A stretch of DNA of 32,968 bases, taken from positions 1 through 32,968 of IMG/VR virus record IMGVR_UViG_3300007540_000049, one strand, 5' to 3'. How positions within the stretch are numbered: position 1 is the stretch's first letter; the number at the start of each line of letters is the position of its first letter. A program made the translations under genes and the position numbers. Source of the DNA: a virus. The notes beneath the pieces were generated by a model. The model did not search any database. It was not told the DNA's origin and worked only from the letters and a program-made list of their open reading frames with translations. This document shows, piece by piece, positions 3,359 through 31,622 of the stretch.

Positions 3359-4120
3359 ATGCCCGAAGAATTCACACCGCCCGTTGACGAGACTCCCGCC
3401 TACTCTCCCGAGCAGCAAGAGCAGTACAACATTGATCCTCAAGGAAACCCGCTAGGTGAGCAACCTGCTGCGGTAGAACCCACAGACGATCTTATTCTTG
3501 GTAAGTTTAAGTCTGTAGAGGATCTAGCTAAGAGCTACCAAGAGCTTGAGGCGGCACAGTCAGGCAAGAAAGTAGACTCTCTAAAAGCCTCGGACGCTGA
3601 GAACGCAGGAACAACTCCTCTTACAGAAACGCTTGAAGCAGTCAGTGAGCACTTTGGCGAGCATGGTGAGATTGGAGAAGAGCAGTACGACGCTCTTGAA
3701 AAGCTAGGGCTCAACCGTCAGTACGTAGACTCGTACCTCGGTGGAATTGCTGCACAACAAACACAAATGCAAAACCAACTCATGGGTATTGTGGGTGGTG
3801 AGCAAGAGTACGGTGAGATGATGCGATGGATGAATGAATCCTTAGCCCCTGATGAAGTACAAGCATACGACCGTGTGGTTGGCTCAGGAGATATGGAGCA
3901 AATCTCTCTACTCATCCAAGGGATGGCAGCACGCTTTAAGTCTGCGAACCCCGGTGGTCCTCAGACGCAACTACAAGGACAAACAGTTCCCGGCGCATCC
4001 GGGTTCAGAAGCAAAGGTGAGATCATGGAAGCCATGAACGATCCTCGCTACGCAACAGACGCAGCCTTCCGTGAAGATGTCTCAAGAAAGATGTCGTTAA
4101 CTGCTGATACCGTTTGGTAA
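3359..4120 (+). CDS. Capsid assembly scaffolding protein, T7 gp9-like
   Basis: 253 aa (T7 gp9 is 307). Scaffolds co-assemble with the capsid protein to form the procapsid and then leave. The protein is highly acidic and Gln/Pro-rich at the N-terminus, carries the family's short GKFKSVEDLAKSYQELEA segment (residues about 48-65), and ends in a mixed-charge helical region (last 35 residues), where scaffolds usually contact the shell. It lies 3 bases after the portal and ahead of the capsid gene. It is followed by a 111-base gap with a small hairpin and an inverted repeat. Confidence 0.85.
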   Translation: MPEEFTPPVDETPAYSPEQQEQYNIDPQGNPLGEQPAAVEPTDDLILGKFKSVEDLAKSYQELEAAQSGKKVDSLKASDAENAGTTPLTETLEAVSEHFGEHGEIGEEQYDALEKLGLNRQYVDSYLGGIAAQQTQMQNQLMGIVGGEQEYGEMMRWMNESLAPDEVQAYDRVVGSGDMEQISLLIQGMAARFKSANPGGPQTQLQGQTVPGASGFRSKGEIMEAMNDPRYATDAAFREDVSRKMSLTADTVW

Positions 4121-4144
4121 CAAACAAAGGTTCTGAGAGAAGGC

Positions 4145-4158
4145 CACCCTGCGGGGTG
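4145..4158 (+). repeat. Short hairpin after the scaffold gene
   Basis: CACCC (4145-4149) pairs with GGGTG (4154-4158) around TGCG. No T-run follows at once, so it is more likely a processing or stability element than a terminator. Confidence 0.35.
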
Positions 4159-4162
4159 ACAA

Positions 4163-4225
4163 CCTCCTATGGCAGATCCTTTTATTTCTCTTTTTATTCT
4201 TACTTAGTAATTAATCCATAGGAGG
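4163..4225 (+). promoter_or_regulatory. 10-bp inverted repeat masking the capsid Shine-Dalgarno
   Basis: CCTCCTATGG (4163-4172) is the exact complement of CCATAGGAGG (4216-4225), which contains the capsid gene's AGGAGG ribosome binding site 6 bases before the ATG at 4232. The 43-base loop is A/T-rich and should be unstructured. Folding would block ribosome access; opening by a ribosome, protein or RNA cleavage would release it. Confidence 0.5.
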
Positions 4226-4231
4226 ATTATT

Positions 4232-5326
4232 ATGGCTATTACCCCCTCAGTAGGTGGACAGACTACATTTAGTGTATCCGCTGACCGAGAATTGTTTCTT
4301 AAAGTATTTTCGGGCGAGGTTATGACAGCGTATGAACGCGCAATCAAAGTCTCACCGCTACTAACCACTCGTACGATCTCTTCTGGCAAGTCTGCTCAGT
4401 TCCCTACCACTGGTGTGGCTGCTGCGCGTTACTTCCAAGCGGGTGATGATTTGTTCTCTGACACTAATGGTGATGGAAAGTCTTACCTTTCTTCCATTAA
4501 GCAGTCAGAGCGTGTCATCTACGTTGATGATCTCTTGACGGCTTCTTGCTTCATCGACCAGCTTGATGAAGCCATGAGCCACTATGACTACCGTTCTGCT
4601 TTTGCAACTGAACTGGGCCGTGCGTTGGCGCGTCACCAAGATAACTACGCTGTCCAAACTTTGTTTGCGTCAAGCGTGGATGTCAACAATGTTGCGAGTG
4701 AGCAGACCCCCGGTGGTGTTCTTGGTAACATCAACGACAACGACTTTTACACCAATGCTGTGAGTGCGCTTTCGACAATCTACGCAGCAGCCCGGAAAAT
4801 GGACGAGGCTGATGTCCCCGCCGAAGACCGCTTTGTCGTGTTGCCTCCCATTGCTTACTACAACCTCGTAGAGGCTGGTGTTCTTAGCGTTGGTGGTCAC
4901 GTAACAAGCGATGCGCGTCCTCGTTTTAGTGGTGGTGTTCGTGCCGAGGGTCCGATGACCATCGGTGGAATGTCCGTTATTGTTTCAAACGCTGATGGTT
5001 TCACCAGTGATGACGAAGCAGATGATGGTGCGTTCCACATTGACACCAAGTCTTCCGAAGCTTCTGCTGAAGATTACGGAATTCGCAACCTTGCCACTGC
5101 GGGTAACAAGCCCACTGGCGTGGCTGGTGGAACTGGAGCTACTAGCGCAATCTTGCAAGCAATCTGCTTCCACAAGTCTGCGGCTGGTGTTGTCAAGCTT
5201 AAGGATCTCAGCATGGAGTCTGAGTACATCATCGAGAAGCAAGGCACACTTATGGTTGCGAAGATGGCCCAAGGCATGGGTGCTCTCCGCAACGATGGTG
5301 TTGTTTGCGTCCTTGATGCTGCTTAA
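4232..5326 (+). CDS. Major capsid protein, T7 gp10-like
   Basis: 364 aa (T7 gp10A is 345). This HK97-fold subunit builds the icosahedral shell. The N-terminal part matches T7 gp10 closely: ELFLKVFSGEVMTAYERA (residues about 20-37), then RTISSGKSAQFPTTG, and EAMSHYDYRS further on. It has the strongest Shine-Dalgarno seen in the window (AGGAGG, 6 bases before ATG), as expected for the most abundant protein. No 10B-type frameshift extension is apparent: the alternative frame ends 10 bases after the main stop. It is followed by a strong hairpin at 5344-5370. Confidence 0.97.
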   Translation: MAITPSVGGQTTFSVSADRELFLKVFSGEVMTAYERAIKVSPLLTTRTISSGKSAQFPTTGVAAARYFQAGDDLFSDTNGDGKSYLSSIKQSERVIYVDDLLTASCFIDQLDEAMSHYDYRSAFATELGRALARHQDNYAVQTLFASSVDVNNVASEQTPGGVLGNINDNDFYTNAVSALSTIYAAARKMDEADVPAEDRFVVLPPIAYYNLVEAGVLSVGGHVTSDARPRFSGGVRAEGPMTIGGMSVIVSNADGFTSDDEADDGAFHIDTKSSEASAEDYGIRNLATAGNKPTGVAGGTGATSAILQAICFHKSAAGVVKLKDLSMESEYIIEKQGTLMVAKMAQGMGALRNDGVVCVLDAA

Positions 5327-5343
5327 TTCTGACTGACTGATAC

Positions 5344-5374
5344 GGGGGGCCTCCCTAGTGGGGGCCTCCCATTC
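5344..5374 (+). terminator. Strong hairpin after the capsid gene (T-phi-like)
   Basis: Positions 5344-5354 pair with 5360-5370 in an 11-bp, very GC-rich stem (two G-U pairs) with a 5-base CTAGT loop, followed by the weak tract ATTCTC. T7 places its main late terminator T-phi at exactly this point, between genes 10 and 11. The poor T-tract suggests partial termination. Confidence 0.65.
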
Positions 5375-10367: not shown

Positions 10368-13184
10368 ATGGCAAACGAATATAGACAATTAGGAACGCCG
10401 CGCTATCAGGTACAACAGCAGGTTGGTGGCCTTAGTGGGCAAGCACCGCAAGACCTTGGAGCACAAGCTTTTTTAAGAGGTTTTGCTGGTTTATCTCAAA
10501 GTATCTCTAGTGCGCAGCAGGTAGCAAACAAACAAAACATTGAAAAAGCTTTGGCAGAAGGTGATGCACTGCAAGCAGCGTCACAAAAAAACTACAAGGA
10601 TGCCGTAAAGGACGGAGATATAGATCCTATGCAGAACCCTTGGGTTGCTGTTGGAGCTATGAAACGTGACGGAGATAAACAAGCTACAGCACTAATCCGT
10701 GAAGCGCGTAACGAATGGAAAGCAATCGCAAACGACCCAAACGATTCAAGAGGTACAGAGCCTGACGGGTTTACAAAGTTCTTTGAAGCCAAGAGGCAAA
10801 CTGTAATTGACGCTAGTGGGACACAGTCACATTACTGGGAGGGGGCTTTTCACAACAAAGCAAACACTTACTTTGAAGAAGTTGTTGATAAAGAAACTAG
10901 CCTCGCGCACCGACGAGCTTTAGCAAGACGAACCGACGCGGACGTTGAATCTATTGCGGCTGCTATTGTTGACATAACTAACGCCGCAGATGACGATGAA
11001 ATAAAGGATATAATAGGCGGCGTACAGACAACCATTGATGCGTTAGCCGATGGAGCTTTATGGACCCCTGAGTTTCAGGATGCTATACTTTCTGGAATTA
11101 AAGGTCTTCTAACATCACCGACGCACGCAAAGAGTGCTAACACACTTTTGCAGAGTATACTGACTGGACCTAAATCTACTGACCCAGCTACGCCACGCAC
11201 TACCAAGTGGGCCGACACAAAAAAAGTTAAAGCATTTTTAGGTGATGGTGTTGACGATGATCGGAAAGCCGCAGAGTTGTCTCACACAAAAGCTCAACTA
11301 ATTGAATACAGTGGAAAACTTGGAGATCTTAAACTAGCTCTTGTAAATCTTGACACGGCTGTACTTAACGGGACTATGTCTTTTGATGAGGCAAACACAA
11401 AAAGAAAAACACAAGCACAAGAAATTGTAGATTATTACCTGACGCTTGGTCCTACATATTCTAGAGAGATGCTTTCTTTTGTTAAGTCTCAGCTAGAACA
11501 AGACAAAAAATACGCAGAAATGCAAGCTAATCAATTTGCTATTAACTCTGCGTTTACGTCTGTTACTACTGGTGGTAGCTATCTTTCGGCAACGAGTTCT
11601 TTAACTACTGCGCAGCGCAACAGTTTAGATCCTCAATTTATGGCCGAAATTCAGCAAAGAGTGGCTAAGAAACTATCGCAAGGTGTGCAAGCAAACGTAG
11701 TTGACGAATTGATTTTGTTTCATGCCTCTAGCGGCCACGTTCCGCGTCAATACAAGTGGATGCTTGCGCAGCAAATGCGGAGCTTTGTTACCAGCACTCC
11801 TGATACCATTGATGATGTAGACCCTAACTTTGTTCAAGCTGCTGAAACTTACAAGCGTATGCGCCAAGGCGGTGTTGGAGACTTTGGGAGTGCTGATCCT
11901 GCATACGTTCTTCTTGAGGAAGTGCACCAAGCTCTAGAAAGCGAACCATCAAAATCTCCTGACAAAGTATTGTTTGAGATACTTCAAGCAGGAGGTACAG
12001 AAAAGTACAAAAACTTACAAGCTCAAAGAGATTCTGTGCTTCCCGAATTTATTGCCGATTCTGTTAACGGATTGTTTTCAGAGGAGGGGCTTAGTGAAGA
12101 CACAATGATACGCCTTAACAATGCAGCTACACAAAAGCACGATGAGTTACGTACACGGTACGGGCCTGAAGAAGCCGCAGAAAAACTTAACGAATTCTTA
12201 GAGGGTATCGAGCGTAACGAAAACGACTTGAACTTAAGCAACGTCGCCTTTACAAGTGAGGGTGAGTCCTTGGAGGATTTTGCGCAACATGTTGGCAAGA
12301 TGCATAATGAAGTCCAACTAGAATTGTTAGAGCAGAAGTTTTCAGGTGCGGGCATTGATCTAGATCATCTTCTTATTATGAATGACTACTCAACCCCTTC
12401 AAGTCTAAATATGCTTGGCAGCATGGGTGCTAATATAGAAGACTTATTCAAGTTTGGAGAAGATGATCGGTTACAGCACAGACTTGACACTGATGTTCCT
12501 TATAAAGTATTTAGACCAAAAACTACTTTTTTAGGTGATCTTAAAGGAGCTGCTGGTAACATACTTGGTGTATCATACGATGAACCAGTATCTTTTAAAG
12601 GGCTGTTTAAACGAGAGCCCGATGCTATCTTAGAGTATGCTGAAGCGCTTGGCATTGATGTAGCGATTGATGCACCTGTTGATGACGCAGGGGCAAGGGC
12701 TGCTTCTGTCGTACTAAATGAAGACGGCTCTATTAGCACTATAGATCAAAACGGATATCTTCACATTATTGCTGATCATCGTGCTACGGAGATTATTAAA
12801 AACTACCGAGGAGACGTAAAAAACAAAAGATATGAAAAGCTTGCTAATTCAGACTTGGCACATGATGCTTTAAATCAAGACCGTACTCGCCGTGACTCTT
12901 GGTTTCCTGCTGACATTACAAAAGAAGAGGCGGGAGTAATACGTGCTTGGTCAGACAGCGTGGGTGGTTATATCTCTGATGTTGTGAGTCCATTAGGAAA
13001 AGCTCTTGCAGAACGTGACTACAGCGGAATACCCTCGGCAGTACTGGACGCGTACATTGCTAGTAGCCCCTTCTCCCTCGATTTTGGGGGGCGTTTTAAA
13101 AATCTCGCGCGGGGGTTCCAAGTAACGCACGCTAGGGGCACAATGGCACTACAAGAACTAGCACAGGGGGCTTTCGGTGAGTAA
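10368..13184 (+). CDS. Internal virion (ejection) protein, T7 gp15-like
   Basis: 938 aa (T7 gp15 is 747). gp15 is the periplasmic tube component of the T7 DNA-ejection machine. The N-terminus has the family pattern: a Gln-rich start, FLRGFAGLSQSISS, ALAEGDALQAAS, and a DPMQNPWVAVGAMKRDGD segment matching the gp15 region around its NPF(F)KYG motif. The rest is long, acidic and helical without membrane segments. It lies 3 bases after gp14 and overlaps the gp16-like GTG start by 8 bases. The function is assigned by position, size and N-terminal similarity. Confidence 0.85.
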   Translation: MANEYRQLGTPRYQVQQQVGGLSGQAPQDLGAQAFLRGFAGLSQSISSAQQVANKQNIEKALAEGDALQAASQKNYKDAVKDGDIDPMQNPWVAVGAMKRDGDKQATALIREARNEWKAIANDPNDSRGTEPDGFTKFFEAKRQTVIDASGTQSHYWEGAFHNKANTYFEEVVDKETSLAHRRALARRTDADVESIAAAIVDITNAADDDEIKDIIGGVQTTIDALADGALWTPEFQDAILSGIKGLLTSPTHAKSANTLLQSILTGPKSTDPATPRTTKWADTKKVKAFLGDGVDDDRKAAELSHTKAQLIEYSGKLGDLKLALVNLDTAVLNGTMSFDEANTKRKTQAQEIVDYYLTLGPTYSREMLSFVKSQLEQDKKYAEMQANQFAINSAFTSVTTGGSYLSATSSLTTAQRNSLDPQFMAEIQQRVAKKLSQGVQANVVDELILFHASSGHVPRQYKWMLAQQMRSFVTSTPDTIDDVDPNFVQAAETYKRMRQGGVGDFGSADPAYVLLEEVHQALESEPSKSPDKVLFEILQAGGTEKYKNLQAQRDSVLPEFIADSVNGLFSEEGLSEDTMIRLNNAATQKHDELRTRYGPEEAAEKLNEFLEGIERNENDLNLSNVAFTSEGESLEDFAQHVGKMHNEVQLELLEQKFSGAGIDLDHLLIMNDYSTPSSLNMLGSMGANIEDLFKFGEDDRLQHRLDTDVPYKVFRPKTTFLGDLKGAAGNILGVSYDEPVSFKGLFKREPDAILEYAEALGIDVAIDAPVDDAGARAASVVLNEDGSISTIDQNGYLHIIADHRATEIIKNYRGDVKNKRYEKLANSDLAHDALNQDRTRRDSWFPADITKEEAGVIRAWSDSVGGYISDVVSPLGKALAERDYSGIPSAVLDAYIASSPFSLDFGGRFKNLARGFQVTHARGTMALQELAQGAFGE

Positions 13185-16100
13185 CGAAGACTTTTTTAGC
13201 TCGCTGCCGCAGCACCCGACACGCGAAGAAGAGCGGCAAAGAGAGCGTGATGCTGCACGAACGCAAAGTAAGATCCGAAATGCTTCGGGTGGTGATCTTT
13301 TTGCACACGCATTTTCTGAAACAAGTACGTTTACTCCGTACTTTTCTGACTACGCACCGCAAAACTTTGTTGATGATCCTGACTTTGTCATGGATGAAGA
13401 GACGTTTGCACGCTTTTCAGATGGTCTTCCAGCGAGTGCTGATGAGCATATCTATACAGCTAAGTCTGAAGCTCATGCCCAAGCTATTCGAGATCACACA
13501 CTTAAAACGCAAGAAGCGTCGCAGATCTTTTCTGAAAAGTACGGTACTGCTGGAGTAATGGGCGCATACATTGTTTCTGGTTTCTTTCAGCCAGAAGCTT
13601 TACTGGTTAATGCGGCTGGCGCTCCTGTGTATAAAGCTGCCGCCAATGCTGCTAAGTTTACACGCCTACAACGGTTTAGGAATGTTGGCGCATTAGCAGC
13701 GGGGGAAGGCGCAGCGTTTGCCGCTGTCCGTGCGCCCGGAGATCCCCTGATGTCTGAAGGAGATATCCTTACCGTGGGAGCTATCTCAGGAGTCTTAGCA
13801 GGTGGTCTATCATCGCTTGCTCGTACTCGTATTGGAGACTCAAGCCAAGTAATCGACGGAGCAAACACACGACAGGCGGCTACTGAGCAGGGGTATCGAG
13901 ACGCTTCAAAAGGATCAAACTGGTGGAAGTCAGTTTTTGATGATCATGAAATGTTTTTCGAGTGGGTTCCTGACCACCTCCAGTCCAACTACATGGACTT
14001 TAGAAAGGCAGCCTTTGGAGTTTTAGGGGACACCACTGGCGCACAGGCGACCGCCATCTCCGGTGATGGCTCTATAAACGTACGACGCGTCTCACCAAAA
14101 CCAACTAGAGAGCCTATTAAGGACAAGTTTAACCGCCTTGCAACAGAGGATGAGGCTAACTTTCCAGACTCAGTTGACGAAGGGATAGCCAAGCATCAAA
14201 GAAGTGCTCGCAAAAACTTCAGGCAAGGCGGGATGACTGCAAACCAGCAAGGCCGCAACAAGAAGATTTCGGACACAATCAGGGAAAATGTAACCAGAGA
14301 CAAGGGTAAAGAAGCTGGAGATGCCGCTGGTGACGCTTATTTAGAGACATTTGAGAGGCTCAACGAGGCGCTCAAGCAAGATCGCGCACAGCCTAAGCCT
14401 GTTAGTGGAGTAGTCCCGCCCCCCGGACCTCGGCGCGTCTCACCAAAACCAACAAGAAAAAGCTACGGATCTATTTCTTTTATTGGTGATCGTTTCCGCA
14501 ACTTTAAGAGCATTGCTTTTGATCTAGGCGATGACATGGGGATGGTTGTTCATCACGATAAGCGTGTTGTTATTCGTGATGGTGTTAGGACTATGCACGG
14601 TGCACTAGATGACACAGGCCGTCTTCAGATTGACGGTGACTCAATCACTATCCAAGAAGGCGCACAAGCATCACGACTTGATACACCTATCCACCCAGAA
14701 ACAATAGAAGCAAAATTTAACAAAGCTTGGTCAGACTCTCAGGAAGTTATTGCTGATGATGTTGACGCATTATTTAACGGTCGCCCTGACCACATTATGC
14801 GTAAGTATCCTAAGCCGTCTTCACGAGAGATTGACAAGGCAGACTTGCGGCAACACATTGACCCGGACGGCGCAGAGGTCGATGGACAAGGAGCTACGCG
14901 CTACCCTGAGCACCTTGGTGATACGATCCGTGCGTTATCCCGCAAGACTCGAAACATCTTTGGTGATGAGTACATGCGTCGGTGGTTGCCTGAGAGACTA
15001 CAGCGTTTCTCTGCCAACATAGACAAAGCTGCCGTAAGCACACTGCGTAAAAGCCTCACATCAAAAGCTGCTCTGCGGCGCATGGAAGATGTTTATGAGG
15101 GGATGCCTGAAGCCGAGCTACGTTCTGTAAAGCAAGGGGCTATTGATCTTGAAGCAGAAGAAGCTTTCAAGGAGTTTATGCGTGATGTGTACTACAGACG
15201 CTCTGGCGGCAAAGACTACATTGATGGCTTAACATACGAAGACATTAAGTTTTTAGCTGATCACAACCCTGAGTCTTTAGCTAAGTTGTCTACGTCAGCG
15301 TTAGAGCGCTTGACAAGAGGACAACAAAAACGAGTACGCAAAAAACTTAATGCGGCAAGAGATAAGGTTCTGCAAGCAGAGCGTGAAGCAAAGCAAGCTG
15401 CACTTGACAGCCCGAAGCGTAGCGGCAATCTAATCTACGATCCAAAGACGCACGAGATTGGCGTAGTCACACGAGTGTACAAAAACGCTGATGGCGAAGA
15501 TGTCATGGATGTAGACTTTGGAGAGATCCGTGGAGTTGAGGGAGATCGCCCTATTCTTACAGGCGGTCCTGACGTAAAGGGTGCGGATGTTTTAACTCCG
15601 GGCAGACAAAGGACTGTTGGTCAGAAGGATGTTGAGATCCTTCTTCCCCCAAGAGTCACAAAGTCTAAGCTTAAAAACACACAAGTTCGCGTTAATGATA
15701 CGCCTGAAATTACAAACGCACGTAATTTTATTAATGACCTTAAGCGCAGACTTCGCATAGCAACGGACAAACGCGACAGCTTAAAGCGAGAAGTTGCCGC
15801 TCCTTCGGAGAGTATAGGACGATCTGGTGACATTAGGTTTGCTGATGAAGCTCTCGAAGAAGCACGGCGGTTATCAAATGACCCAGAGAGTAATGTACAC
15901 CTTGTCTACATGACTCCTGATGAGTTTGGTTCTTTTACTGTTCCTCTGCGTGAAGGCACTATAGGAGACAAGGGGCAGTCTGTAGATAGTGTCCGTGATC
16001 TTATGGAGGCAGGAACAAAAATGGACGAACTGCCCACCTTAACTGTGTCACGCGAGGCTGCATCAAAAGGTAAGCCAAGTCGTGAAGGTGCATACGAAGT

Positions 16101-19100
16101 AACAGGGCACGATGGGCGGCACCGTGTGGCGGCTATGGATGAGCTAGGCGATGGTCTTGTTCCTGTACTTATTAAAGGCGGTCAGCGTATTGATCCCAAG
16201 ACAGGAGAGGCAGTTGGGTTTGACCTAACTGGGCTTCTGGAAGACCTTGACGTTAAAGTCCTTAAAAACGAACGCGGCTACGGTTACGGTCAATTTAAAG
16301 ACATTAAACAAACTGATTTTGATTTTCCGACAGCCAAAGAAACCCCGGACGCGCCAGCAGAAGGCGTTACTCCTATACCTGACTATGAGCATGTCCCTCC
16401 AACAGCTTACAAGTCTTGGTCTGATCTTAAAAAAGCGCGTAAGTTATTTCAAGATGATGTCTGGAGCCTACATCCTGAAAAACGCAACTACTTAAAGGCT
16501 ATACACAAGCTGTGGAAAGACGGCATGTTGAGCGACACAGATGTTGAACTGCTTGACATGGCGTTAAAGACAGTCAATCTAAACGCTCACCCATACTTAG
16601 TTAATTTTGCAGTAAGTCCAAGACAACTGGTAACTGGCGGTACCGAGCGAACATTTGGGGCAGCGAGAGGTTTCATTAATCCTAGCGCTCCCGGTCGTGG
16701 TGTTGGTATTCCTAAGACACAGAACTACAGAGTTGATAGAAAAGTTATCGAGTTAAGCAAACGCGCATTAATGACTTCTGGAAGAACATCTCCCGCTGAA
16801 AGATCGCCTTTGTCTGTTTTGCTTCACGAGCTTGGTCATATTTTAGATGGCGTATCAAGCGAACAAATATTGCTCCCTAGTGGGCGAAAAGCAAAGCCTA
16901 AGACAATCACACTTCAGGGTGGTGCAAGGTACGTGGGGACTGAAACGCAAAGTTTACTTGTAAAAACAGCTAACGAAATTAAATCAGATCTTGGTGATTC
17001 GTACCCAGAGTTTGTTCGGTCTGTTATGGGGACACGAGATGTTGGTCACTACGTCTCTATGACAACTGAGTTTGGTGCTCAGTTAATGTCTACGTTTGTT
17101 ATGCGCAGGATGCGTGCAGCATCGCGTAGTAAAAAGTTTTTAGCAGCCGAGGCAAAAGCTGAAGTAGCTGTTAACACTTTTTGGGGTAAGATGTTGGACA
17201 AGATAACTGGCACACTTAAGGAAATGTCTGACGTATCTCCGGGAGTAATACAAACTCTTGATGTTGTTGCAGCACTTACTCTAGGCATTAGACCTAATGT
17301 TAAAAAAGGAAGTAAGTTAGCTACGGCACTGCTGAGGCAGCGGGATAAGTTTATTAAAACAGCTACGGAGGATGTAAAAGCAGGTAACCTTACTTCTACA
17401 ATGCCCCGAACAAAACACGAAGTTGACGCCGCTGTAGAAGCGCAACTTAAGATTCTGCTTGGTGGTGTCAAAGAAACTGAGTTTACCGCACCTGAATTTC
17501 AAGCAGTGCTTGGTCAGTTAATGGATCAAAATGGCATTAAAGGTGTAGTCGAAGTTCTTGATGACATGGACTGGGCGTCAGACGAACTTATGCAGTCATT
17601 GCTGGACGGCCATAAGGCTGCCGAAGTGATTGGTAAAAAGATTGGTGAAGGCGTCCAGCCACCTAGAAAAGTTCCTTCGGGTAAGTCTGAACCTATTACC
17701 GAGCCGGGACCTATTGTTGATCCTGATACTGGCAATACAACAAAACCTAGAAAAGAACGCTTGGTAAAGCGGCCTAAGCCTGAGCCCAAGCCTGAGCCTA
17801 TCCGACCCAAGCGTGTACACCCCACAAAGGGCGGTAAGATTAAACCTGAGCCTGAGCCCATTGCGCCTGATCCGATCCGTGTAGAAGCTTACGATGCGGC
17901 TCGTGCGGAAGTAGACGCACTGTCAGCGCAGCTAACTAAAACACTAAGCGATCTAAAAAAACAAGAAGGCAAGAACTCAGTTGCCACTGAGATAACTGGC
18001 ACAATCGAAGATACGTTTGTTGTTATTCGTGTAAGTGATGAGACAGGTGCTCCGTTAACGCGAGGAAGCAAGAAGGTTTTTGAGCTTGACTTGCATGGTT
18101 CTTCACGTAACTCAATCAAACTACAAGCACGAACAAAGTCTGCTGCCATTGAAGAAGCGCAGTTAATTATCAGAAGAAATAAACGTCAGAAGCAAGCTGA
18201 CGATGTTCGAGCATGGAGAGAGCAACAACTTGCACGCACAGAGCAAGATCTTTCTGAAGAGGTAGCAACGCTCAACCAAGCCCGGAAGGCGGTCAGAGGG
18301 AAGGCAGAGGTCGGTCGAGCCGCCCTTGAGCGCCTAGCCGATATACCCGCACTTAGGCGTCTTCCTGTTTGGCAAGCTTTGAAAGCTGCGCTTGATGATC
18401 TAGAAGTTAAACCTACAAAAGCAAAAGCACGCGAGCTTAAAACACCTGACGGAAAGGTTGTTGGTAAAAAGACAAAGAAAGACACCAGCCTTACCGACGA
18501 AGATATCGTTGTACTAGACGGTCGTGGTGAGGTTATTAGTGGCCGTGTTGACTCAGACTTTGTTCCTCCTGCTAAGAAGATCTTTAACACAGGAGCACAG
18601 GATGTTTTCTTTATCTACAACAAACGCACAGGTGAGGTTACCGCACCGAATCAGTTAATGAATCAACTCGATGAGTTAACTACACGACATGATGCGCTTA
18701 CACGTAGAAAGAACAATGCAGATCACGGGCAACAGGATCCCGGAGCATTTGATGATGTGCAAAAAGCTTTAGACGAAGCTGGCATTACGGCTGAAGAAGC
18801 TTTTGGCGACGTTGGCGTTAGCCCTCGGATTCTTGGCAATGTACTTGGCACTGGGGACAAGGTATGGAACTCTCTTAAAACAAGAGCGCAGTCAAGTGTA
18901 AGCGGAGCGATGCGCTTTTTAGGGTTTGACGTATATGGTAATCAGGCTGGCATGCAGTCTGCTGATGGAACAATCAAACCTGTTGTAGATGCTGCTGACG
19001 GCATTAACCGTTTAGGTATTGAAACTACACGCCAACAGCTTAGAACAGGTCGGTTTGCCAAAGCTCGTTTAGAGTCGTGGGACATCTACCACAAGTGGCG

Positions 19101-21234
19101 CAAGTTAAATAAAATGGGCTTTGCAAAACACCTTGCTGGCCTTGCTCAGGAAGAGTTTGGTGAGCAGATTACGCGACATCTTGGTGATCCAAAAATGATG
19201 TCAATTCCTAGAAGGCAACTAAGCGACTCTGATAAGTTGGTACGCGATGCTGCGTTGTTACATCAAGATCATTATCGAGACATTCTTAAGTGGCTTAAAA
19301 AGAATGACCCTGAGCGTTGGAAGGATATCCCTGACAACCCTAACTACGTCCCTCGTATTTTCTCAACAACCAAGTATCAAAAATTATTATTGGAGTTTGG
19401 TGAAAAGAACGTAACAAAACTTCTTTCGCATGCTCTTCGGCTTGGGAACCCTAAGTTAAACAAAGAGAACGCAGACAAGTTTGCAAAGATGTACCTAACC
19501 AAGTCAGGCCAAGCAAAGTCTGGGATGACTTGGCTTAACGATCCGCGTACTACACGAGATCCATCTAAGTTTGCAGATAAGCTTGTTAAAGAGTTTGGGA
19601 TAGATCCTGAGCAAGCAGATGAAATGGCGGCTTTCTTTGCCCAGTCAGAAAAAGGACCGGGGCGTGCACTGCATCGCATTGCTATGGACGAAACAGCGCA
19701 CCTTGAGCTAGTTGGTAAGTCAGGCCAGCGTAACGTAGATATCCGTGAACTGTTTGAATCAAACATGTTTAACCTTACGGATAGGTACAACTGGGAAGTT
19801 ATTAGCAGCACACTTGTTGCAGAAACAATTAAACGATTTAACAACAAACTTGGAAGGCCGGGACTGTTCACCAACCTTGATGATATCAAGTCGTTTATTG
19901 TTGATGACGCTAGAGCACGAGGTCTTGATGTTCGCCACATAACAGAACAACTTGACATGGTTATCCGTACGGCGCGAGGACGGGGTTTCCAAGACTCAGT
20001 TAAGTTTGGTGAGAATGCATCAATGTTTAAAGATGCCGTGTTCTCCTTTGGTTATGGATCTACTTTTGGAAGAGCGGCACTAAGTGAAGTTATTCCTACG
20101 CTGTTTGGGCGGGGGATTGCCAACATGCTTAAGGCAAACGGAGTGCTTCGTAGAGTCAGTACTGGTGAAATACCTATCTCGCGCAAAGACATTAAGTTTA
20201 TGCTTGAGGCGCAGGGCATGGGTCTTTCAGCAAGGCGCTTTGGCAAGCTAGACTTTATGTCGCAACACCTTGAAGAAGGTATGCCGGGATCTAACTTTGC
20301 TGCTGACGCACGCAGGTTGCTTAAAGGCGCAACAAACATAACGGCTGAGTTGTCAGGTCTAAACCCGATTACTCAATGGACAGAAGAAATGTCTATGCGA
20401 ATCAACACGTACGCAAACGTGCAAGCCATGCTAAAGGGTGATGTACCTAATCAGGCACGGCTCTCTCAGATGGGTATAACGCTTGATGATTGGAACGCTA
20501 TGACAGCGCAGCTTAGAAAGCACATGCGAAACACCACTGGGGAAAATGGCTTGGACTCCTTGAGTTTAAACCTTGACGAGTGGGATGATCAGATTGTTGC
20601 AGCTAAGTTTATGAACGCTATGTACTCTGAAGTCTTGGCAAACGTAACGCGAGGAGATAGGACTGACCTTCCTGAGTGGTTTGCGAAGTCAGGGCTGCAC
20701 CGCGCTCTTGGACATATCCTTCTTCAGTTTAGACGCTTTGGTATTTCAGCGCACCGTAACGTCTTGACAAGAAACGTAACAGCCGCTGACGGTCGTGCAG
20801 CAATGATGTTTACAACAAGTGCTATGGGCGGTTTGTTTACTTACATGTTAAGTAACCTCTTTGCTTACGAAGATAGCGCTGACGGTCGCCGCAAATTAAA
20901 AGAACGCATGAGCCCAACTCGTTTGGCTATCGGAGCAATATCACGCTCCCCGTTCTCTGGAACGCTAATGGATGTAGCTAACCCAGCACTAAGTTTGACT
21001 CTTGGTGTTGACACGTACGGTAATACGCACCGTTACGGACTAGCTGATTCAACTTTTGAACAAGTCCCGTTGTTCTCATGGCTTGGCGATATTGCTGGGT
21101 CTGGTCGAGCCGCTATTGGCATAGGCACTGGGCAGCGAGACTTTGAATACCATGATTGGGCGCGGACCAAACGTGTGTTTGGTTGGTTAAAGCACCCTCT
21201 TCTTCAACCCGTTGTCCGACAATTAGAAAAATAA
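13177..21234 (+). CDS. Giant gp16-like ejection protein with inserted metallopeptidase and ParB-like domains
   Basis: 2685 aa, about twice T7 gp16 (1318). It starts with GTG behind AGGGGG and overlaps the gp15-like gene. Order: residues 1-110 polar; 125-215 Gly/Ala-rich hydrophobic, as in gp16 membrane regions; RRVSPKPTR at 303-311, repeated at 419-427; a helical region; a ParB-like segment with GHDGRHR at 977-983; a zincin motif HELGH at 1217-1221 (possible third ligand near E1298); a Pro/Lys/Glu-rich linker with KPEP repeats at about 1494-1568; then a gp16-like C-terminal part from about 1890 (with PNYVPRIF near 2054, and LLQFRRFGISAHRN late). No lytic transglycosylase motif is seen at the N-terminus, unlike T7. 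The protein should be packed in the core and injected, so the inserted domains may act in the envelope or cytoplasm (inference). Confidence 0.85.
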   Translation: MSNEDFFSSLPQHPTREEERQRERDAARTQSKIRNASGGDLFAHAFSETSTFTPYFSDYAPQNFVDDPDFVMDEETFARFSDGLPASADEHIYTAKSEAHAQAIRDHTLKTQEASQIFSEKYGTAGVMGAYIVSGFFQPEALLVNAAGAPVYKAAANAAKFTRLQRFRNVGALAAGEGAAFAAVRAPGDPLMSEGDILTVGAISGVLAGGLSSLARTRIGDSSQVIDGANTRQAATEQGYRDASKGSNWWKSVFDDHEMFFEWVPDHLQSNYMDFRKAAFGVLGDTTGAQATAISGDGSINVRRVSPKPTREPIKDKFNRLATEDEANFPDSVDEGIAKHQRSARKNFRQGGMTANQQGRNKKISDTIRENVTRDKGKEAGDAAGDAYLETFERLNEALKQDRAQPKPVSGVVPPPGPRRVSPKPTRKSYGSISFIGDRFRNFKSIAFDLGDDMGMVVHHDKRVVIRDGVRTMHGALDDTGRLQIDGDSITIQEGAQASRLDTPIHPETIEAKFNKAWSDSQEVIADDVDALFNGRPDHIMRKYPKPSSREIDKADLRQHIDPDGAEVDGQGATRYPEHLGDTIRALSRKTRNIFGDEYMRRWLPERLQRFSANIDKAAVSTLRKSLTSKAALRRMEDVYEGMPEAELRSVKQGAIDLEAEEAFKEFMRDVYYRRSGGKDYIDGLTYEDIKFLADHNPESLAKLSTSALERLTRGQQKRVRKKLNAARDKVLQAEREAKQAALDSPKRSGNLIYDPKTHEIGVVTRVYKNADGEDVMDVDFGEIRGVEGDRPILTGGPDVKGADVLTPGRQRTVGQKDVEILLPPRVTKSKLKNTQVRVNDTPEITNARNFINDLKRRLRIATDKRDSLKREVAAPSESIGRSGDIRFADEALEEARRLSNDPESNVHLVYMTPDEFGSFTVPLREGTIGDKGQSVDSVRDLMEAGTKMDELPTLTVSREAASKGKPSREGAYEVTGHDGRHRVAAMDELGDGLVPVLIKGGQRIDPKTGEAVGFDLTGLLEDLDVKVLKNERGYGYGQFKDIKQTDFDFPTAKETPDAPAEGVTPIPDYEHVPPTAYKSWSDLKKARKLFQDDVWSLHPEKRNYLKAIHKLWKDGMLSDTDVELLDMALKTVNLNAHPYLVNFAVSPRQLVTGGTERTFGAARGFINPSAPGRGVGIPKTQNYRVDRKVIELSKRALMTSGRTSPAERSPLSVLLHELGHILDGVSSEQILLPSGRKAKPKTITLQGGARYVGTETQSLLVKTANEIKSDLGDSYPEFVRSVMGTRDVGHYVSMTTEFGAQLMSTFVMRRMRAASRSKKFLAAEAKAEVAVNTFWGKMLDKITGTLKEMSDVSPGVIQTLDVVAALTLGIRPNVKKGSKLATALLRQRDKFIKTATEDVKAGNLTSTMPRTKHEVDAAVEAQLKILLGGVKETEFTAPEFQAVLGQLMDQNGIKGVVEVLDDMDWASDELMQSLLDGHKAAEVIGKKIGEGVQPPRKVPSGKSEPITEPGPIVDPDTGNTTKPRKERLVKRPKPEPKPEPIRPKRVHPTKGGKIKPEPEPIAPDPIRVEAYDAARAEVDALSAQLTKTLSDLKKQEGKNSVATEITGTIEDTFVVIRVSDETGAPLTRGSKKVFELDLHGSSRNSIKLQARTKSAAIEEAQLIIRRNKRQKQADDVRAWREQQLARTEQDLSEEVATLNQARKAVRGKAEVGRAALERLADIPALRRLPVWQALKAALDDLEVKPTKAKARELKTPDGKVVGKKTKKDTSLTDEDIVVLDGRGEVISGRVDSDFVPPAKKIFNTGAQDVFFIYNKRTGEVTAPNQLMNQLDELTTRHDALTRRKNNADHGQQDPGAFDDVQKALDEAGITAEEAFGDVGVSPRILGNVLGTGDKVWNSLKTRAQSSVSGAMRFLGFDVYGNQAGMQSADGTIKPVVDAADGINRLGIETTRQQLRTGRFAKARLESWDIYHKWRKLNKMGFAKHLAGLAQEEFGEQITRHLGDPKMMSIPRRQLSDSDKLVRDAALLHQDHYRDILKWLKKNDPERWKDIPDNPNYVPRIFSTTKYQKLLLEFGEKNVTKLLSHALRLGNPKLNKENADKFAKMYLTKSGQAKSGMTWLNDPRTTRDPSKFADKLVKEFGIDPEQADEMAAFFAQSEKGPGRALHRIAMDETAHLELVGKSGQRNVDIRELFESNMFNLTDRYNWEVISSTLVAETIKRFNNKLGRPGLFTNLDDIKSFIVDDARARGLDVRHITEQLDMVIRTARGRGFQDSVKFGENASMFKDAVFSFGYGSTFGRAALSEVIPTLFGRGIANMLKANGVLRRVSTGEIPISRKDIKFMLEAQGMGLSARRFGKLDFMSQHLEEGMPGSNFAADARRLLKGATNITAELSGLNPITQWTEEMSMRINTYANVQAMLKGDVPNQARLSQMGITLDDWNAMTAQLRKHMRNTTGENGLDSLSLNLDEWDDQIVAAKFMNAMYSEVLANVTRGDRTDLPEWFAKSGLHRALGHILLQFRRFGISAHRNVLTRNVTAADGRAAMMFTTSAMGGLFTYMLSNLFAYEDSADGRRKLKERMSPTRLAIGAISRSPFSGTLMDVANPALSLTLGVDTYGNTHRYGLADSTFEQVPLFSWLGDIAGSGRAAIGIGTGQRDFEYHDWARTKRVFGWLKHPLLQPVVRQLEK
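14086..14105 (+). repeat. 20-bp direct repeat, copy 1
   Basis: CGCGTCTCACCAAAACCAAC, identical to 14434-14453, encodes RVSPKPT in the gp16-like protein. The two copies flank about 330 bp and may mark a duplicated linker or an inserted segment. Confidence 0.8.
14434..14453 (+). repeat. 20-bp direct repeat, copy 2
   Basis: Second exact copy of the 14086-14105 sequence, in the same reading frame, following a short run of prolines. Recombination between the copies would delete 116 residues in frame (348 bp). Confidence 0.8.
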
Positions 21235-21236
21235 CT

Positions 21237-21542
21237 ATGAAAAAACTCAGCCTCATCCCTATCTACTTTTTTATTCCTGCCTGTGCAACCGTTGGCAAAC
21301 TTCTCCCCGGTGGTGAAGAGCAAGCTGTTGAAATGGGTGACACCATGATGGAGAGTGCTCCCATGCTTGCCGAGCAAGCTGGCACAATCACCACAATGAT
21401 GACAGGCAACCCTGCTATGGGTGGTGCTGTCGCTACCATGCTTGGCGGTGCTGCTGCTTTGTTTGCTGCTAAGAAGCACAAGGCAAAGAAGGACGCTGAA
21501 GAGTGGGAGGTTGTGGAAGAAGAGGAGGAAGCTGCTGTATGA
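21237..21542 (+). CDS. Small lipoprotein with a C-terminal membrane segment (spanin-like)
   Basis: 101 aa. The ATG at 21237 follows the gp16 stop by 2 bases and gives a short signal sequence MKKLSLIPIYFFIPAC with a lipobox-like IPAC at Cys16. A Gly/Ala-rich hydrophobic segment at residues 59-78 is followed by a strongly charged tail (KKHKAKK, then a run of Glu). Lipobox plus a later transmembrane segment is the layout of unimolecular spanins, which join outer and inner membranes and fuse them at the end of lysis; a holin-related role is also possible. The stop overlaps the next start as ATGA. Confidence 0.6.
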   Translation: MKKLSLIPIYFFIPACATVGKLLPGGEEQAVEMGDTMMESAPMLAEQAGTITTMMTGNPAMGGAVATMLGGAAALFAAKKHKAKKDAEEWEVVEEEEEAAV

Positions 21543-21796
21543 AAGACCCTCGGTTAGCTAGGGCTGGTGTGTCAGGGTTTAACAAACCTAAGCGCACCCC
21601 GTCCCACAAGACGAAGTCTCATGTGGTTGTTGCCAAATCTAAAGGCACGATCAAAACAATTCGTTTTGGTCAGCAAGGAAAGACTGGGGACAGAGGCAAT
21701 ACAGCTAGATCTCGTTCCTTCAAGGCTCGACATGCTAAAAACATAGCCAGAGGACCGCTCAGTGCTGCGTACTGGGCTAACAAAGTAAAATGGTAA
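21539..21796 (+). CDS. Small basic conserved phage protein (DUF6321-like)
   Basis: 85 aa from the ATG overlapping the upstream stop. Very basic, with the C-terminal SRSFKARHAKNIARG and SAAYWANKVKW. This ending is, to my recollection, common to a conserved small protein of marine T7-like and other phages (DUF6321); the family name should be checked. No catalytic motif is visible; the charge suggests nucleic acid binding or a virion-associated role. It sits between two lipoprotein genes in the lysis region and overlaps the next gene by 7 bases. Confidence 0.6.
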   Translation: MKDPRLARAGVSGFNKPKRTPSHKTKSHVVVAKSKGTIKTIRFGQQGKTGDRGNTARSRSFKARHAKNIARGPLSAAYWANKVKW

Positions 21797-22212
21797 AATC
21801 TTTTTTCGTTGTCCTGCCTCTGTTGTTGGTTTCTTGTACCGCAACAGAGGTAGGCAACACCCTACTTCCTGATGAGCTTACATTTGGGGCTAGTTCTGGC
21901 GATCACTACGGTGAAAACAAACTAGGCCAATTAGATGGTAAGTATGAGGGAGCCTCAGAGAGCACGTACGCCGCTCTAACGTGGCATCTCCCTGAAATAG
22001 GGCATGAACGCATGTCCGTAGAAGAACGAGCAGAGATCCGTACAGCAGCCTTAGAAGCAGAGGCTGAAATTGCGGAGCCAGAAATAAAAATGAACATCCG
22101 TGACGGGGTAGAGCCTCCTCCTAAATGGGTGCTTCTGATTGCAGCATTTATACTTCTTATTTTTGTTTTAGCTGTGGCTTGGAAGGCTCGGCGTAACAAC
22201 CAATGGCACTAG
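21790..22212 (+). CDS. Candidate unimolecular spanin (u-spanin)
   Basis: 140 aa. The N-terminal signal peptide ends in a clear lipobox LVSC at Cys16. A soluble periplasmic stretch with a charged helical part (residues 74-100) leads to a C-terminal transmembrane helix (about 113-131, WVLLIAAFILLIFVLAVAW) and a short basic tail. An outer-membrane lipid anchor plus an inner-membrane helix in one chain is the definition of a u-spanin (known in phage T1), which removes the outer-membrane barrier in lysis. T7 instead uses separate gp18.5 and gp18.7. Neighbouring membrane proteins support a lysis role. It overlaps both adjacent genes. Confidence 0.6.
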   Translation: MVKSFFVVLPLLLVSCTATEVGNTLLPDELTFGASSGDHYGENKLGQLDGKYEGASESTYAALTWHLPEIGHERMSVEERAEIRTAALEAEAEIAEPEIKMNIRDGVEPPPKWVLLIAAFILLIFVLAVAWKARRNNQWH

Positions 22213-22568
22213 ACTGGCTACTTAAAAGGATTCGACCAATGACAGAAGCAGATCAGACGCGCAGAGCGAATGTGATTGATACGCAAGCGGAGGTAATGCT
22301 TCGTGAAGTCGAGGCTAAGGCTCGCATGGCAGAGATGAAGGCAAAGCAGTCAGCTTCCGAGCTTGCTGCTCTTCACCTGAGCACATGGGCAGGATTGTAC
22401 ATGACTCTCATGGTGACAATTTTCCTGTTTTCGTGCTTGTATTTGCCAGCAGAATCTTTAGGCACAATCACGGGGCTTATCACGCTCGTGGTGACATCGC
22501 TGGCTGCGATTCTTAAGAGCATCGTTGACGGTAAAGAAGAAAAACCAAAGAAGAGTGATGGTGAGTAG
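22203..22568 (+). CDS. Holin-like protein with two membrane segments
   Basis: 121 aa. An N-terminal charged, Ala/Glu/Lys-rich amphipathic region (residues 14-55) is followed by two transmembrane segments (about 62-81 and 87-105) separated by a short turn, and a charged C-terminal tail (KEEKPKKSDGE). Two segments with both ends probably inside resemble class II holins, which make the inner-membrane hole that starts lysis. The size and the neighbouring spanin- and XhlA-like genes support this. No sequence family is firmly recognised. It overlaps the upstream gene by 10 bases and the downstream gene by 11. Confidence 0.6.
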   Translation: MALDWLLKRIRPMTEADQTRRANVIDTQAEVMLREVEAKARMAEMKAKQSASELAALHLSTWAGLYMTLMVTIFLFSCLYLPAESLGTITGLITLVVTSLAAILKSIVDGKEEKPKKSDGE

Positions 22569-22809
22569 TCAAGATATCCTCCAACTTAGCAGAAAGCTTG
22601 ATGATCTACAGGAAACTGTAGACAGGATTGACGTATCTCTTCGTGGCAATGGGAAGAAAGGACTCTTTACAGAGTTTGCGCTGCAACAAGAAAAGATCCA
22701 CGCGCTTGAGGACTTCCGCACAGAGCAGGAGTCGATGAAGCGGTGGATCAGTCTTGGTGTGCTCGGTGCTATCGGCACACTAGTCTGGAATATCGTGACT
22801 AGCTACTAA
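22558..22809 (+). CDS. XhlA-like coiled coil with C-terminal membrane anchor
   Basis: 83 aa from ATG 22558 (GTG 22561 is possible; AAGAAGAG is upstream). A coiled coil (residues about 5-28) is followed by DVSLRGNGKKGL, a second helix, and a C-terminal transmembrane helix (63-80, ISLGVLGAIGTLVWNIVTS). Coiled coil plus C-terminal anchor and the RGNGK turn resemble haemolysin XhlA-type proteins of phage lysis cassettes. It is the last gene of the rightward arm, and its end overlaps the end of the leftward arm by 11 bases, leaving no room for a terminator between the arms. Confidence 0.6.
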   Translation: MVSSQDILQLSRKLDDLQETVDRIDVSLRGNGKKGLFTEFALQQEKIHALEDFRTEQESMKRWISLGVLGAIGTLVWNIVTSY

Positions 22810-23107
22810 TGTATGCGGCTCTGTAGCAACGTGCGTACATCATACCCCACAAACTACCGTGCTCGGTATACTCATGGACTAGTGGCGTGAGTAGACCGTG
22901 TGCCCACTCATGCACTAGCACATCTGCTTGCATACCTTCCGATAGTTTCTTATCCACTACGATGCTTATCTTCGTAGTGCCGTTCATTAACAATTTACAA
23001 TAACCCTGTAACCCGTTGGATAGCTTACGTCTTGACACTGTTACTGGGAATGGTAACGGCTCGCTTACTCGTAGGTTTTCCAGAGTTTCTTTCCAGCTAA
23101 CCTGCAT
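22799..23107 (-). CDS. Small zinc metallopeptidase-like protein (HEWAH)
   Basis: 102 aa. HEWAH at residues 66-70 is a zincin HExxH motif, followed by HEYTEHGSLWGMMYARCYRA, in which His83 and its neighbours could supply the third ligand as in SprT/WLM-type phage proteins. The N-terminus is a beta-rich half domain. The substrate is unknown; related small phage proteins are often annotated as putative metallopeptidases. It is the last gene of the leftward arm, joined to the metallophosphoesterase by TGATG. An endolysin role is conceivable because no other lysis enzyme is visible, but there is no direct support for it. Confidence 0.7.
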   Translation of the reverse strand: MQVSWKETLENLRVSEPLPFPVTVSRRKLSNGLQGYCKLLMNGTTKISIVVDKKLSEGMQADVLVHEWAHGLLTPLVHEYTEHGSLWGMMYARCYRAAYISS

Positions 23108-24099
23108 CAGTCAAGCCAGATCAAGCTGTCAGCAACAGGGCCATGCTTCTTGTTAAAGAAGACTACTCGTTGGCAGGGTCTTCCTGACTCACCGATAACT
23201 TCAAGAGCCCAGTCGTTGTCACTCTCGATAGTGCCGTTAGCAAAGAAGATCTTATCTTGAACTACACCAGACATTGGTCTGTGGAAGTGTCCAAGAAAGA
23301 TGTAGCCCCACTCTTCAGGGAGACTGCCGCTCCATCCTGCTACCTTTCGAGCAAGTCCTGTGAGCGGGTAGCCTCCAAGACCACCTCCCCCTGAGATTTG
23401 ATCGCCATGAACAAGGAGTAAGTTATGTCCTTCCGCATTAACGACACGATAAAAAGAATCATGGTCTACGTCCCACGTAATGCGGGAGTCTTTGATCACG
23501 CTCGTTACCATAAGCCTCGTCACAACCGTAGCAATCATGTCGAAGTTGGTGCGCGGAGAAGCTCCAGCATTCTTGGGCTGGCTCCTGCCGTGGTTACCGG
23601 GGACAGCACTGACCGTTATGCTGCGGAACGCGCTAGACATTTCGATGATAAAATCAGAGAGTATCTTTGGGGCGACTTTGATGGCTTGATCCCATAAGTC
23701 TGAGTCAACTACCCAAGGCTGGTGAGCAAAGATTGTCTCGCCCTCTACGATATCACCACCAATCATAATGACTGCGTTATCTATCTTAGCACCAGACCGA
23801 CGAGTCTCGACAACCTTAAGTGTCTGCTCTGCCAGCTTCTTCATGCGCTGCTTGGCTACCTTGCTGTCAAACGTAGAGGTAAGCTTGCCGATCTGGGTGT
23901 CACTGATATGAATGACAGCAGTCTCTGAGTGCAGCTTGCGCTTGTCTCTTTCTTTTCTCTTTGGTGGTGTCCACCTAAAGTTCTTTAGTGCCTCGTCTGC
24001 ACGCCGCAAGATAATAGTCTCGATAGCCTCACGGTTCTCAAGCTCCTTGGACAGGCGGCGTATTTCTTTTTCTAATAAGGGGATGTCAGTCATCGTCAT
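23107..24099 (-). CDS. Calcineurin-like metallophosphoesterase
   Basis: 330 aa. After an N-terminal coiled coil (residues 6-40) come the metallophosphatase motifs in order: SDTQIG (66-71), GGDIVEG (114-120), PGNHGR (167-172), LLVHGDQ (228-234) and LGHFHRP (269-275). The first motif has Gln69 where the family usually has His (DxH). Such enzymes cleave phosphoesters, including nucleic acids (Mre11/SbcD), and occur in many large and T7-like phages; the true substrate cannot be read from the sequence. Met1 or Met3 may start it; both overlap the upstream gene. It is coupled by TGATG to the next. Confidence 0.85.
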   Translation of the reverse strand: MTMTDIPLLEKEIRRLSKELENREAIETIILRRADEALKNFRWTPPKRKERDKRKLHSETAVIHISDTQIGKLTSTFDSKVAKQRMKKLAEQTLKVVETRRSGAKIDNAVIMIGGDIVEGETIFAHQPWVVDSDLWDQAIKVAPKILSDFIIEMSSAFRSITVSAVPGNHGRSQPKNAGASPRTNFDMIATVVTRLMVTSVIKDSRITWDVDHDSFYRVVNAEGHNLLLVHGDQISGGGGLGGYPLTGLARKVAGWSGSLPEEWGYIFLGHFHRPMSGVVQDKIFFANGTIESDNDWALEVIGESGRPCQRVVFFNKKHGPVADSLIWLD

Positions 24100-24301
24100 C
24101 TGAGTCCAGCCAGTCGGCCAAGAACTCTGTCTTAAGTGGTTGGGAAAGAAGGGAAAAGATCGCGTGGTTTAGTACACGAACTTGAGCAAGCGATTCTAGC
24201 TGCTCACATAACGCTATTAATCTCTTGGCTAGTAGTAGCCTCTCCCCAAACTCATCTAACAAATCCTCCAGAACCTTATTTGTCATAATAAGGTTAGCCA
24301 T
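24086..24301 (-). CDS. Hypothetical leucine-rich helical protein
   Basis: 71 aa from the ATG at 24301, chosen because GAGG stands about 8 bases upstream; a longer version from 24355 (89 aa) has no ribosome binding site and would leave only 5 bases to the divergent gene at 24361. The protein is almost all helical (LEDLLDEFGERLLLAKRLIA), with an acidic end. No family is recognised. It overlaps the metallophosphoesterase start by 14 bases. It follows a 262-base stretch in which the opposite strand carries the small terminase gene. Confidence 0.55.
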   Translation of the reverse strand: MANLIMTNKVLEDLLDEFGERLLLAKRLIALCEQLESLAQVRVLNHAIFSLLSQPLKTEFLADWLDSDDDD

Positions 24302-24331
24302 TGTCACTGCCTCATCCGGGGCAGGTATACT
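24301..24331 (+). promoter_or_regulatory. Sigma70-like promoter for the lone rightward gene
   Basis: TTGTCA (24301-24306) and TATACT (24326-24331) match host -35 and -10 elements with a 19-base spacer. They sit just upstream of the only + strand gene in the leftward block. A start near 24338 would give a leader of only about 8-23 bases. Confidence 0.4.
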
Positions 24332-24360
24332 ATCGTCACTATCTAATGAATCCATTAACC

Positions 24361-31289: not shown

Positions 31290-31292
31290 GAG

Positions 31293-31335
31293 ATAAAACG
31301 AGGGGATGGGAGATGAACTAAACTCCCACCCCCTC
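31293..31335 (-). terminator. Intrinsic terminator or attenuator upstream of RusA
   Basis: On the leftward strand 31335-31323 pairs with 31312-31300 in a 13-bp stem (one G-U) with a 10-base loop, followed by GTTTTATC. It follows the SSB and 71-aa genes and stands directly before the RusA start codon, so it would set the ratio of SSB to the rest of the replication genes or act as a processing site. Confidence 0.7.
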
Positions 31336-31358
31336 TAGGAAACACACTTCGTGTCTGT

Positions 31359-31574: not shown

Positions 31575-31622
31575 AGTAAAGGTGAGCAGTTTAGCCTCGT
31601 GCTCAGGAGGGAGGGGAGGAGA

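Follow-up and report, generated by a model that had tools for sequence, protein, structure and literature searches.

A conserved RNA leader upstream of the major capsid gene in T7-like phages and its possible role in hiding the ribosome-binding site

Genome context and relatives

The window, that is, the whole 32,968-base stretch of viral DNA analyzed here, is part of a T7-like phage. Its plus strand encodes portal, scaffold, capsid, and tail proteins, whereas the minus strand encodes a terminase, an exonuclease, a DNA polymerase, a primase-helicase, and the end of a single-subunit RNA polymerase. The leader described below lies between two plus-strand open reading frames, the scaffold gene for head assembly (3359–4120; phrog_1052, 1.4e-46) and the T7 gp10-like major capsid gene (4232–5326; phrog_267, 1.8e-54), and all of its features are on the same strand. 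A nucleotide search of phage records gave no match, and relatives were retrieved with the capsid protein, the search of viral contigs returning 80 loci; the capsids of the closest 12 (L001–L012) share 53–71% amino-acid identity with that of the window. A capsid search of bacterial genome contigs yielded 50 pattern-matching stretches, none of which encodes a relative.

Several other features of the window are recorded here in their own right. The replication, terminase, and RNA polymerase genes occupy the minus strand at 21503–32968, after the plus-strand structural genes, unlike the single direction of T7, and the C-terminal part of the RNA polymerase lies at the record end (32366–32938). Just past the capsid stop, a strongly G+C-rich repeated stretch (5344–5369), a possible terminator, has a similar string near 366–382. 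The virion gene block contains a single open reading frame of 2,685 amino acids (13177–21234), and a small protein encoded at 26197–26580 matches Lar-like restriction alleviation and endonuclease VII families.

A conserved inverted repeat at the capsid ribosome-binding site

Immediately before the capsid gene, CCTCCTATGG at 4163–4172 is the exact reverse complement of CCATAGGAGG at 4216–4225, with a spacer of 43 nt. The 3′ arm holds the Shine–Dalgarno (SD) sequence AGGAGG at 4220–4225, upstream of the capsid ATG at 4232, and the 5′ arm is accordingly an anti-SD; the helix that the two would form is referred to as P3. These coordinates confirm the initial annotation, which had reported exact complementary arms 43 bases apart, the second holding AGGAGG, and had judged a 10-base exact partner so close by to be improbable. 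The latter judgment holds as well: no other exact 10-nt inverted repeat in the window has a spacer of 3–60 nt, this exact partner arises in just 14 of 200,000 shuffles of the 95-nt leader, and 18 of 20,000 leader shuffles give 4212–4231 an exact 10-mer partner of any kind. The minimum free energy of 4140–4270 does not stand out (z −1.0; 31 of 200 shuffles are equally good). Given this unimpressive folding energy, conservation, the stronger evidence, was used as the test of P3.

Both arms are kept in 12/12 of the close relatives retrieved through the capsid protein, a count in which L007 repeats L006, L010 repeats L009, and L005, whose arm 1 is one base short at the contig end, repeats L004. 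Arm 1 varies only as CCTCYTRTGG, and all of its variants can pair through G.U. Covariation of the arms, the check proposed in the initial annotation, thus gives a divided answer: every change in arm 1 remains pairable, but arm 2 is invariant and the clade offers no two-sided compensation, the 5′ arm changing only to G.U, which counts against the explanation preferred below. A pattern scan requiring both arms added L084, whose capsid is far more distant (about 38% identity), L095, and L088, which is identical to the window in this region; the three are excluded from the 12 because the pattern that retrieved them demanded both arms. As a control, at least 116 sites outside the clade, among the matches listed, carry ATCCATAGGAGGAT shortly before an ATG; none of these 116 listed sites has a full 10/10 partner within 110 nt upstream, and five have a 9/10 partner when G.U is counted. 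Relatives that keep AGGAGG while losing the upstream arm, named in the initial annotation as the observation that would speak against it, do not occur among the 12, and with no full partner at the listed control sites the predicted pairing of the SD by P3 is well supported by sequence comparison. Two single contigs, L398 and L429, each have at least three ATCCATAGGAGGAT copies a short distance ahead of an ATG, none with a partner arm, a ribosome site of unusual uniformity that belongs to some other phage group.

An outer helix and a pseudoknot

P3 is flanked by a second helix, P1, defined by folds and by a matched-versus-swapped duplex test, in which 4126–4135 pairs with 4173–4182, with one U.U mismatch in the window. 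Over 11 sequences, the mean duplex energy of the P1 arms is −12.5 kcal/mol with their own partner versus −7.0 kcal/mol with swapped partners, a difference reached in 0 of 20,000 permutations and amounting to covariation between relatives. Taken alone, P1 is weak against shuffles in the window, L009, and L084, in which 74, 103, and 192 of 500 shuffles, respectively, are as good. P1 begins 4–8 nt past the scaffold stop in 11/11 clade sequences, and its 3′ arm starts on the base right after the 5′ arm of P3 (offset 0 in 10 of 11 sequences).

Since arm 1 of P3 lies within the loop of P1 and arm 2 lies outside it, P1 and P3 interlock in the predicted fold as an H-type pseudoknot, that is, two interlocking, stackable helices, which may stack end to end. 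The T-rich and, judging from the sequence, weakly conserved linker at 4183–4215 would constitute the third pseudoknot loop.

Given that such a pseudoknot 4–8 nt beyond a stop codon has the usual readthrough geometry, stop-codon readthrough or a frameshift after the scaffold gene was considered and rejected as very unlikely, because the reading frames past the stop are not kept: the extension runs from 5 to 32 codons without conservation, and the capsid ATG is not in a constant frame with respect to the scaffold gene.

A core hairpin shared by distant capsid leaders

Within the loop of P1 lies a small hairpin, here called the core, defined by a search rule and a model (4144–4162). It consists of a C at 4144, a stem formed by 4145–4149 and 4154–4158, a UGCG loop at 4150–4153, and ACAA at 4159–4162. 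On its 5′ side, GAGAAGG at 4137–4143 is the 5′ side of a lower stem and, in folds of the truncated leader, an alternative partner of the anti-SD at 4163–4168.

R1, a covariance model of the window clade, gave weak matches before the capsid gene in distant loci, from which a search rule was derived: a four-base loop on a stem of at least four pairs whose base is C-G, followed by AYAA (or AAAA) and then a pyrimidine. The rule was applied to 91 non-redundant leaders, which remained from 194 loci with a capsid start and 200 nt or more of upstream sequence after removal of 103 that were more than 90% alike. The rule finds the core in 78/91 of them, versus 0.9% of shuffles and 0/91 reverse complements. 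A second model, R2, built from 31 of 38 picked cores, namely those with a 4-bp stem, recovers 10 of the 13 rule misses at E 0.009 or better, so that 88/91 leaders carry the core; by rule and R2 together, it is absent from L045, L048, and L051 among the 91. In the window, R2 matches 4134–4172 at E 9e-5.

The consensus can be written R-C-(stem)-YNMG-(stem)-AYAA-Y. A comparison of 63 distinct cores shows C as the base 5′ of the stem in every one, which the rule did not demand, and a UGCG, UGAG, or UACG loop in 60. The bulge of all 63 reads ACAA or AUAA, as the rule largely imposes; cores added by R2 also carry AYAC and AGAA bulges. The stem itself changes freely, with 26 sequences among the 63 cores and an upper part of usually only 4–5 bp. 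Pairing in the lower helix, which the rule did not fully demand, stands at 87%, and the 31 sequences compared show 31 two-sided changes. The first pair of this helix is G-C or A-U in 63/63 cores, although the rule demanded the pyrimidine side of this pair, which raises its chance value to 78%. The covariation score of the core is 0.921 versus 0.222 for shuffled and at most 0.178 for slid versions, its stem pairs being those demanded by the finding rule. By sequence comparison, then, both P1 and the core have the covariation-supported helices of a structured cis-regulatory RNA. Against Rfam 15, no family reaches its gathering cut-off in the window, and lax thresholds gave nothing convincing in the loci.

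The small size of the core bears on another reading of the leader, a self-cleaving ribozyme releasing the capsid mRNA. A compact pseudoknotted RNA with an invariant internal loop would suit such an enzyme; however, Rfam, ribozyme families included, gives no match, and P1 and P3 are not universal, so the conserved core would be very small, making this reading highly improbable.

Position and distribution of the core

The distance from the AYAA of the core to the capsid ATG ranges from 61 to 132 nt (median 76). In other clades, the core lies 345 to 1,183 nt downstream of the scaffold gene yet close to the capsid start. The core thus has a fixed place before one gene, another property of structured cis-regulatory RNAs. 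When 23 records were searched with R2, 17 matched at E up to 1, and 16 had exactly one match; LUZ100 has a weak match (0.097) before the capsid gene plus a weaker one elsewhere. The remaining six gave no R2 match, and because the records of L084 and L228, which carry the core by other tests, are among them, the R2 record search evidently loses some.

The core is clear in 10 of 20 records of named T7-like phages (P-SCSP2, HTVC048P, HTVC309P, RHEph01, HTVC011P, HTVC019P, CRP-114, HTVC025P, BB8, and MedDCM-OCT-S45-C18) and weak, with an enlarged upper stem, in two (LUZ100 and Pasto). It is unmatched in the other eight: MedDCM-OCT-S39-C11, ctgrD200, Vibrio N4, T7, SP6, phiKMV, P-SSP7, and RCIP0234. 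By eye, a comparable sequence whose bulge reads AUAC can be made out in P-SSP7. In T7 and phiKMV, a phage promoter is annotated immediately ahead of the capsid gene, and SP6 presumably has its own promoter there, recognized by eye. An early proposal that the core is confined to marine phages was dropped, as phages of Rhizobium and Bordetella also carry it and a Pseudomonas phage shows a weak match.

The controls point to the same gene. In 652 kb of 80 other viral loci among those listed, R2 gives one match at E up to 1, in L161, where it sits before a T7-like capsid gene absent from the capsid-search listings; in 632 kb of 78 further loci among those listed, nothing is better than E 0.67. Thus, in 1.28 Mb of other listed viral loci, the sole match better than E 0.5 precedes a capsid gene. 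Two side observations concern the same region. The Pelagibacter phages HTVC048P, HTVC309P, and HTVC019P (L376, L377, and L380) carry a second hairpin-like stretch 5′ of the core, GUUGUG...CAACU with a changing inner stem, about 90–145 nt upstream of the capsid ATG, and a tRNA-Asn gene lies upstream of the capsid gene in RHEph01 (L378, 382–452) and LUZ100 (L385, 313–388).

SD pairing in other clades

In several other groups, the bases right after AYAA also pair with the SD region, using different letters: UCCUGUG(UUG) with (CAA)CAUAGGA, CUUAUUA with UAAUAGG, CCUUGAGA with UCUCAAGG, and UUAAUUGUC with GACAAUUAA. Across 35 representatives, own SD pairs beat swapped ones, and 2 of 20,000 permutations do as well; leaving out the window clade reduces this to a modest signal over 33 representatives, matched by 169 of 20,000 permutations. 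Core-bearing leaders without clear SD pairing are many, HTVC019P, HTVC048P, and the L013 and L297 groups among them, so hiding the SD is not the universal job of the core. On the sequence evidence, SD hiding appears to be an elaboration in some clades, strongest in that of the window. The initial annotation, which took the repeat to sequester the SD region, therefore stands in part: the arms are kept together in the close relatives, their changes are pairable, and analogous SD-proximal pairings recur elsewhere. It was too narrow, having missed the larger conserved RNA to which the repeat contributes one helix, P3.

A proposed two-state leader

The CCUCC that follows ACAA has two possible partners. 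Besides forming the 5′ part of P3, it is the 3′ side of the core lower stem, opposite GNAGG in most clade members, L002 being an exception. When truncated before arm 2, the window leader folds as P1, lower stem, and core; of 11 truncated leaders, seven form the lower stem and four do not. In all 11 complete leaders, the form with a paired SD has the lower energy, by 3.7 to 13.7 kcal/mol, even without P1. The calculated probability that the SD is paired is 0.98 in the window and 0.40–1.00 over the 11 sequences, the lowest values (0.40–0.42) belonging to L011 and L012. The SD is thus paired in the predicted fold, as in SD-sequestering leaders.

Taken together, 4126–4225 is probably a cis-acting leader of the major capsid mRNA that switches between an SD-free and an SD-hidden state. 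The core stem is kept through many letter changes, P3 is conserved, and the place before the capsid gene is fixed. Covariation shows the pairings of P1 and the lower stem; the switch, its direction, and its trigger are inferred. In the proposed mechanism, P1 and the core hairpin, with its C/AYAA internal loop and YNMG loop, would form as soon as they are transcribed. In state A, the CCUCC 3′ of AYAA would close the core hairpin against GNAGG, leaving the SD free and the capsid translated. In state B, the same CCUCC would pair with the newly made SD as the 10-bp P3 stacked on P1, and the SD would be hidden. State A might be held by early ribosome loading, by a protein bound to the core, or by a ribosome on the leader; given that state B is favored at equilibrium, the leader would keep capsid translation low unless state A is held. 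The folding model thus suggests that a newly made leader is open and then shuts, except where ribosomes have loaded or the core is bound by a factor, and the predicted hiding of the SD may decide when the shell protein is made.

Alternative explanations

The pattern of an invariant C, a near-invariant AYAA, and freely covarying stems is what is expected of a protein or ligand site, and most records have a single match, located before the capsid gene. It is conceivable, if somewhat doubtful, that the C/AYAA and YNMG hairpin is a putative operator to which the capsid, scaffold, or another late protein binds, repressing or activating capsid translation. Such an operator is compatible with the two-state leader preferred here.

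Unlikely, by comparison, is a core hairpin that acts chiefly on mRNA stability or processing, as a nuclease site or a hairpin near the 5′ end that marks or protects the capsid mRNA, with SD pairing secondary. The many cores without SD pairing and the short distance between core and capsid gene agree with this, as does the lack of a core in T7, SP6, and phiKMV, with their actual or apparent promoters directly upstream of the capsid gene. However, it leaves the retention of both P3 arms in all 12 close relatives unexplained, and an upper stem of usually only 4–5 bp speaks against it.

The initial annotation proposed that capsid synthesis might be delayed, giving scaffold a head start, until scaffold ribosomes or RNA cleavage opened the repeat. 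A plain long-range SD hairpin of this sort, opened by ribosomes as they complete the scaffold gene, is less likely again. The start of P1 so soon after the scaffold stop throughout the clade would fit it, but melting of P1 alone would leave P3 intact, and because the core of other clades lies far past the scaffold gene, opening by scaffold ribosomes cannot be general. The two-state leader, in which ribosomes or a factor bound to the core may keep the SD free, remains the preferred explanation.

Comparison with known systems

The best reading of the predicted folds is that the leader works like an SD-sequestering leader, a known kind of translation-controlling phage leader. Among the phage leaders of this kind treated in passages of PMC3014915 are those of T4 genes e (lysozyme), soc, 49, and I-TevI, which likewise place the SD in an intramolecular helix before a phage gene and thereby time its translation. 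According to the same passages, a late promoter inside the 5′ arm of T4 gene e makes an open mRNA. Such a promoter in the linker of the capsid leader was considered and rejected, since a comparison of intergenic sequences, made on both strands, yielded there only low-complexity matches among the 40 best of 74 pairs and no repeated promoter-like string. Also unlike T4 gene e, the capsid leader has the P1 pseudoknot, a widely conserved core hairpin, and the capsid gene as its target.

The gene 32 leader of T4, T2, and RB69 offers a second parallel, being a coaxially stacked mRNA-leader pseudoknot that acts on the translation of a phage gene; as presented in passages of PMC3014915, it may be the sole viral example of a pseudoknot used in translational autoregulation. 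In contrast, the gene 32 pseudoknot serves the binding of the gene's own single-stranded DNA-binding protein, while the predicted pseudoknot of the capsid leader itself holds the SD. As for LUZ100, a local promoter and terminator are credited in PMC10134795 with controlling capsid expression, and the passages concerned mention no RNA element at the capsid site. No description of the element was found in the open-access literature (PubMed Central), within which this RNA family appears to be undescribed.

The arrangement also recalls riboswitches. Translational riboswitches of the SAM-II and preQ1-II type are H-type pseudoknots whose downstream arm is the SD, and the predicted capsid leader is built likewise. 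It differs from them in having no Rfam match, much longer helices, and a late virion gene as its target.

Few late phage genes are expressed as heavily as the capsid gene, and the balance of scaffold to capsid matters for head assembly. In T7, the leader of gene 10 occupies the same scaffold-capsid interval and has the promoter phi10 but not the core hairpin; the solution of T7 is a promoter next to the capsid gene. It is tempting, though tentative, to speculate that an undescribed RNA class gates capsid translation across much of the T7-like (Autographiviridae) phages: the invariant hairpin would be the receptor for a phage or host factor that decides between closing of the hairpin and covering of the SD, thereby setting the dose or timing of capsid synthesis, and the full SD-hiding pseudoknot would be present in some clades. 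If many T7-like phages share an RNA leader instead of the promoter used by T7, this would represent a concrete, testable form of post-transcriptional control of virion assembly in an abundant family, and cultured carriers, such as HTVC019P, HTVC011P, RHEph01, CRP-114, and BB8, make the question amenable to settlement at the bench.
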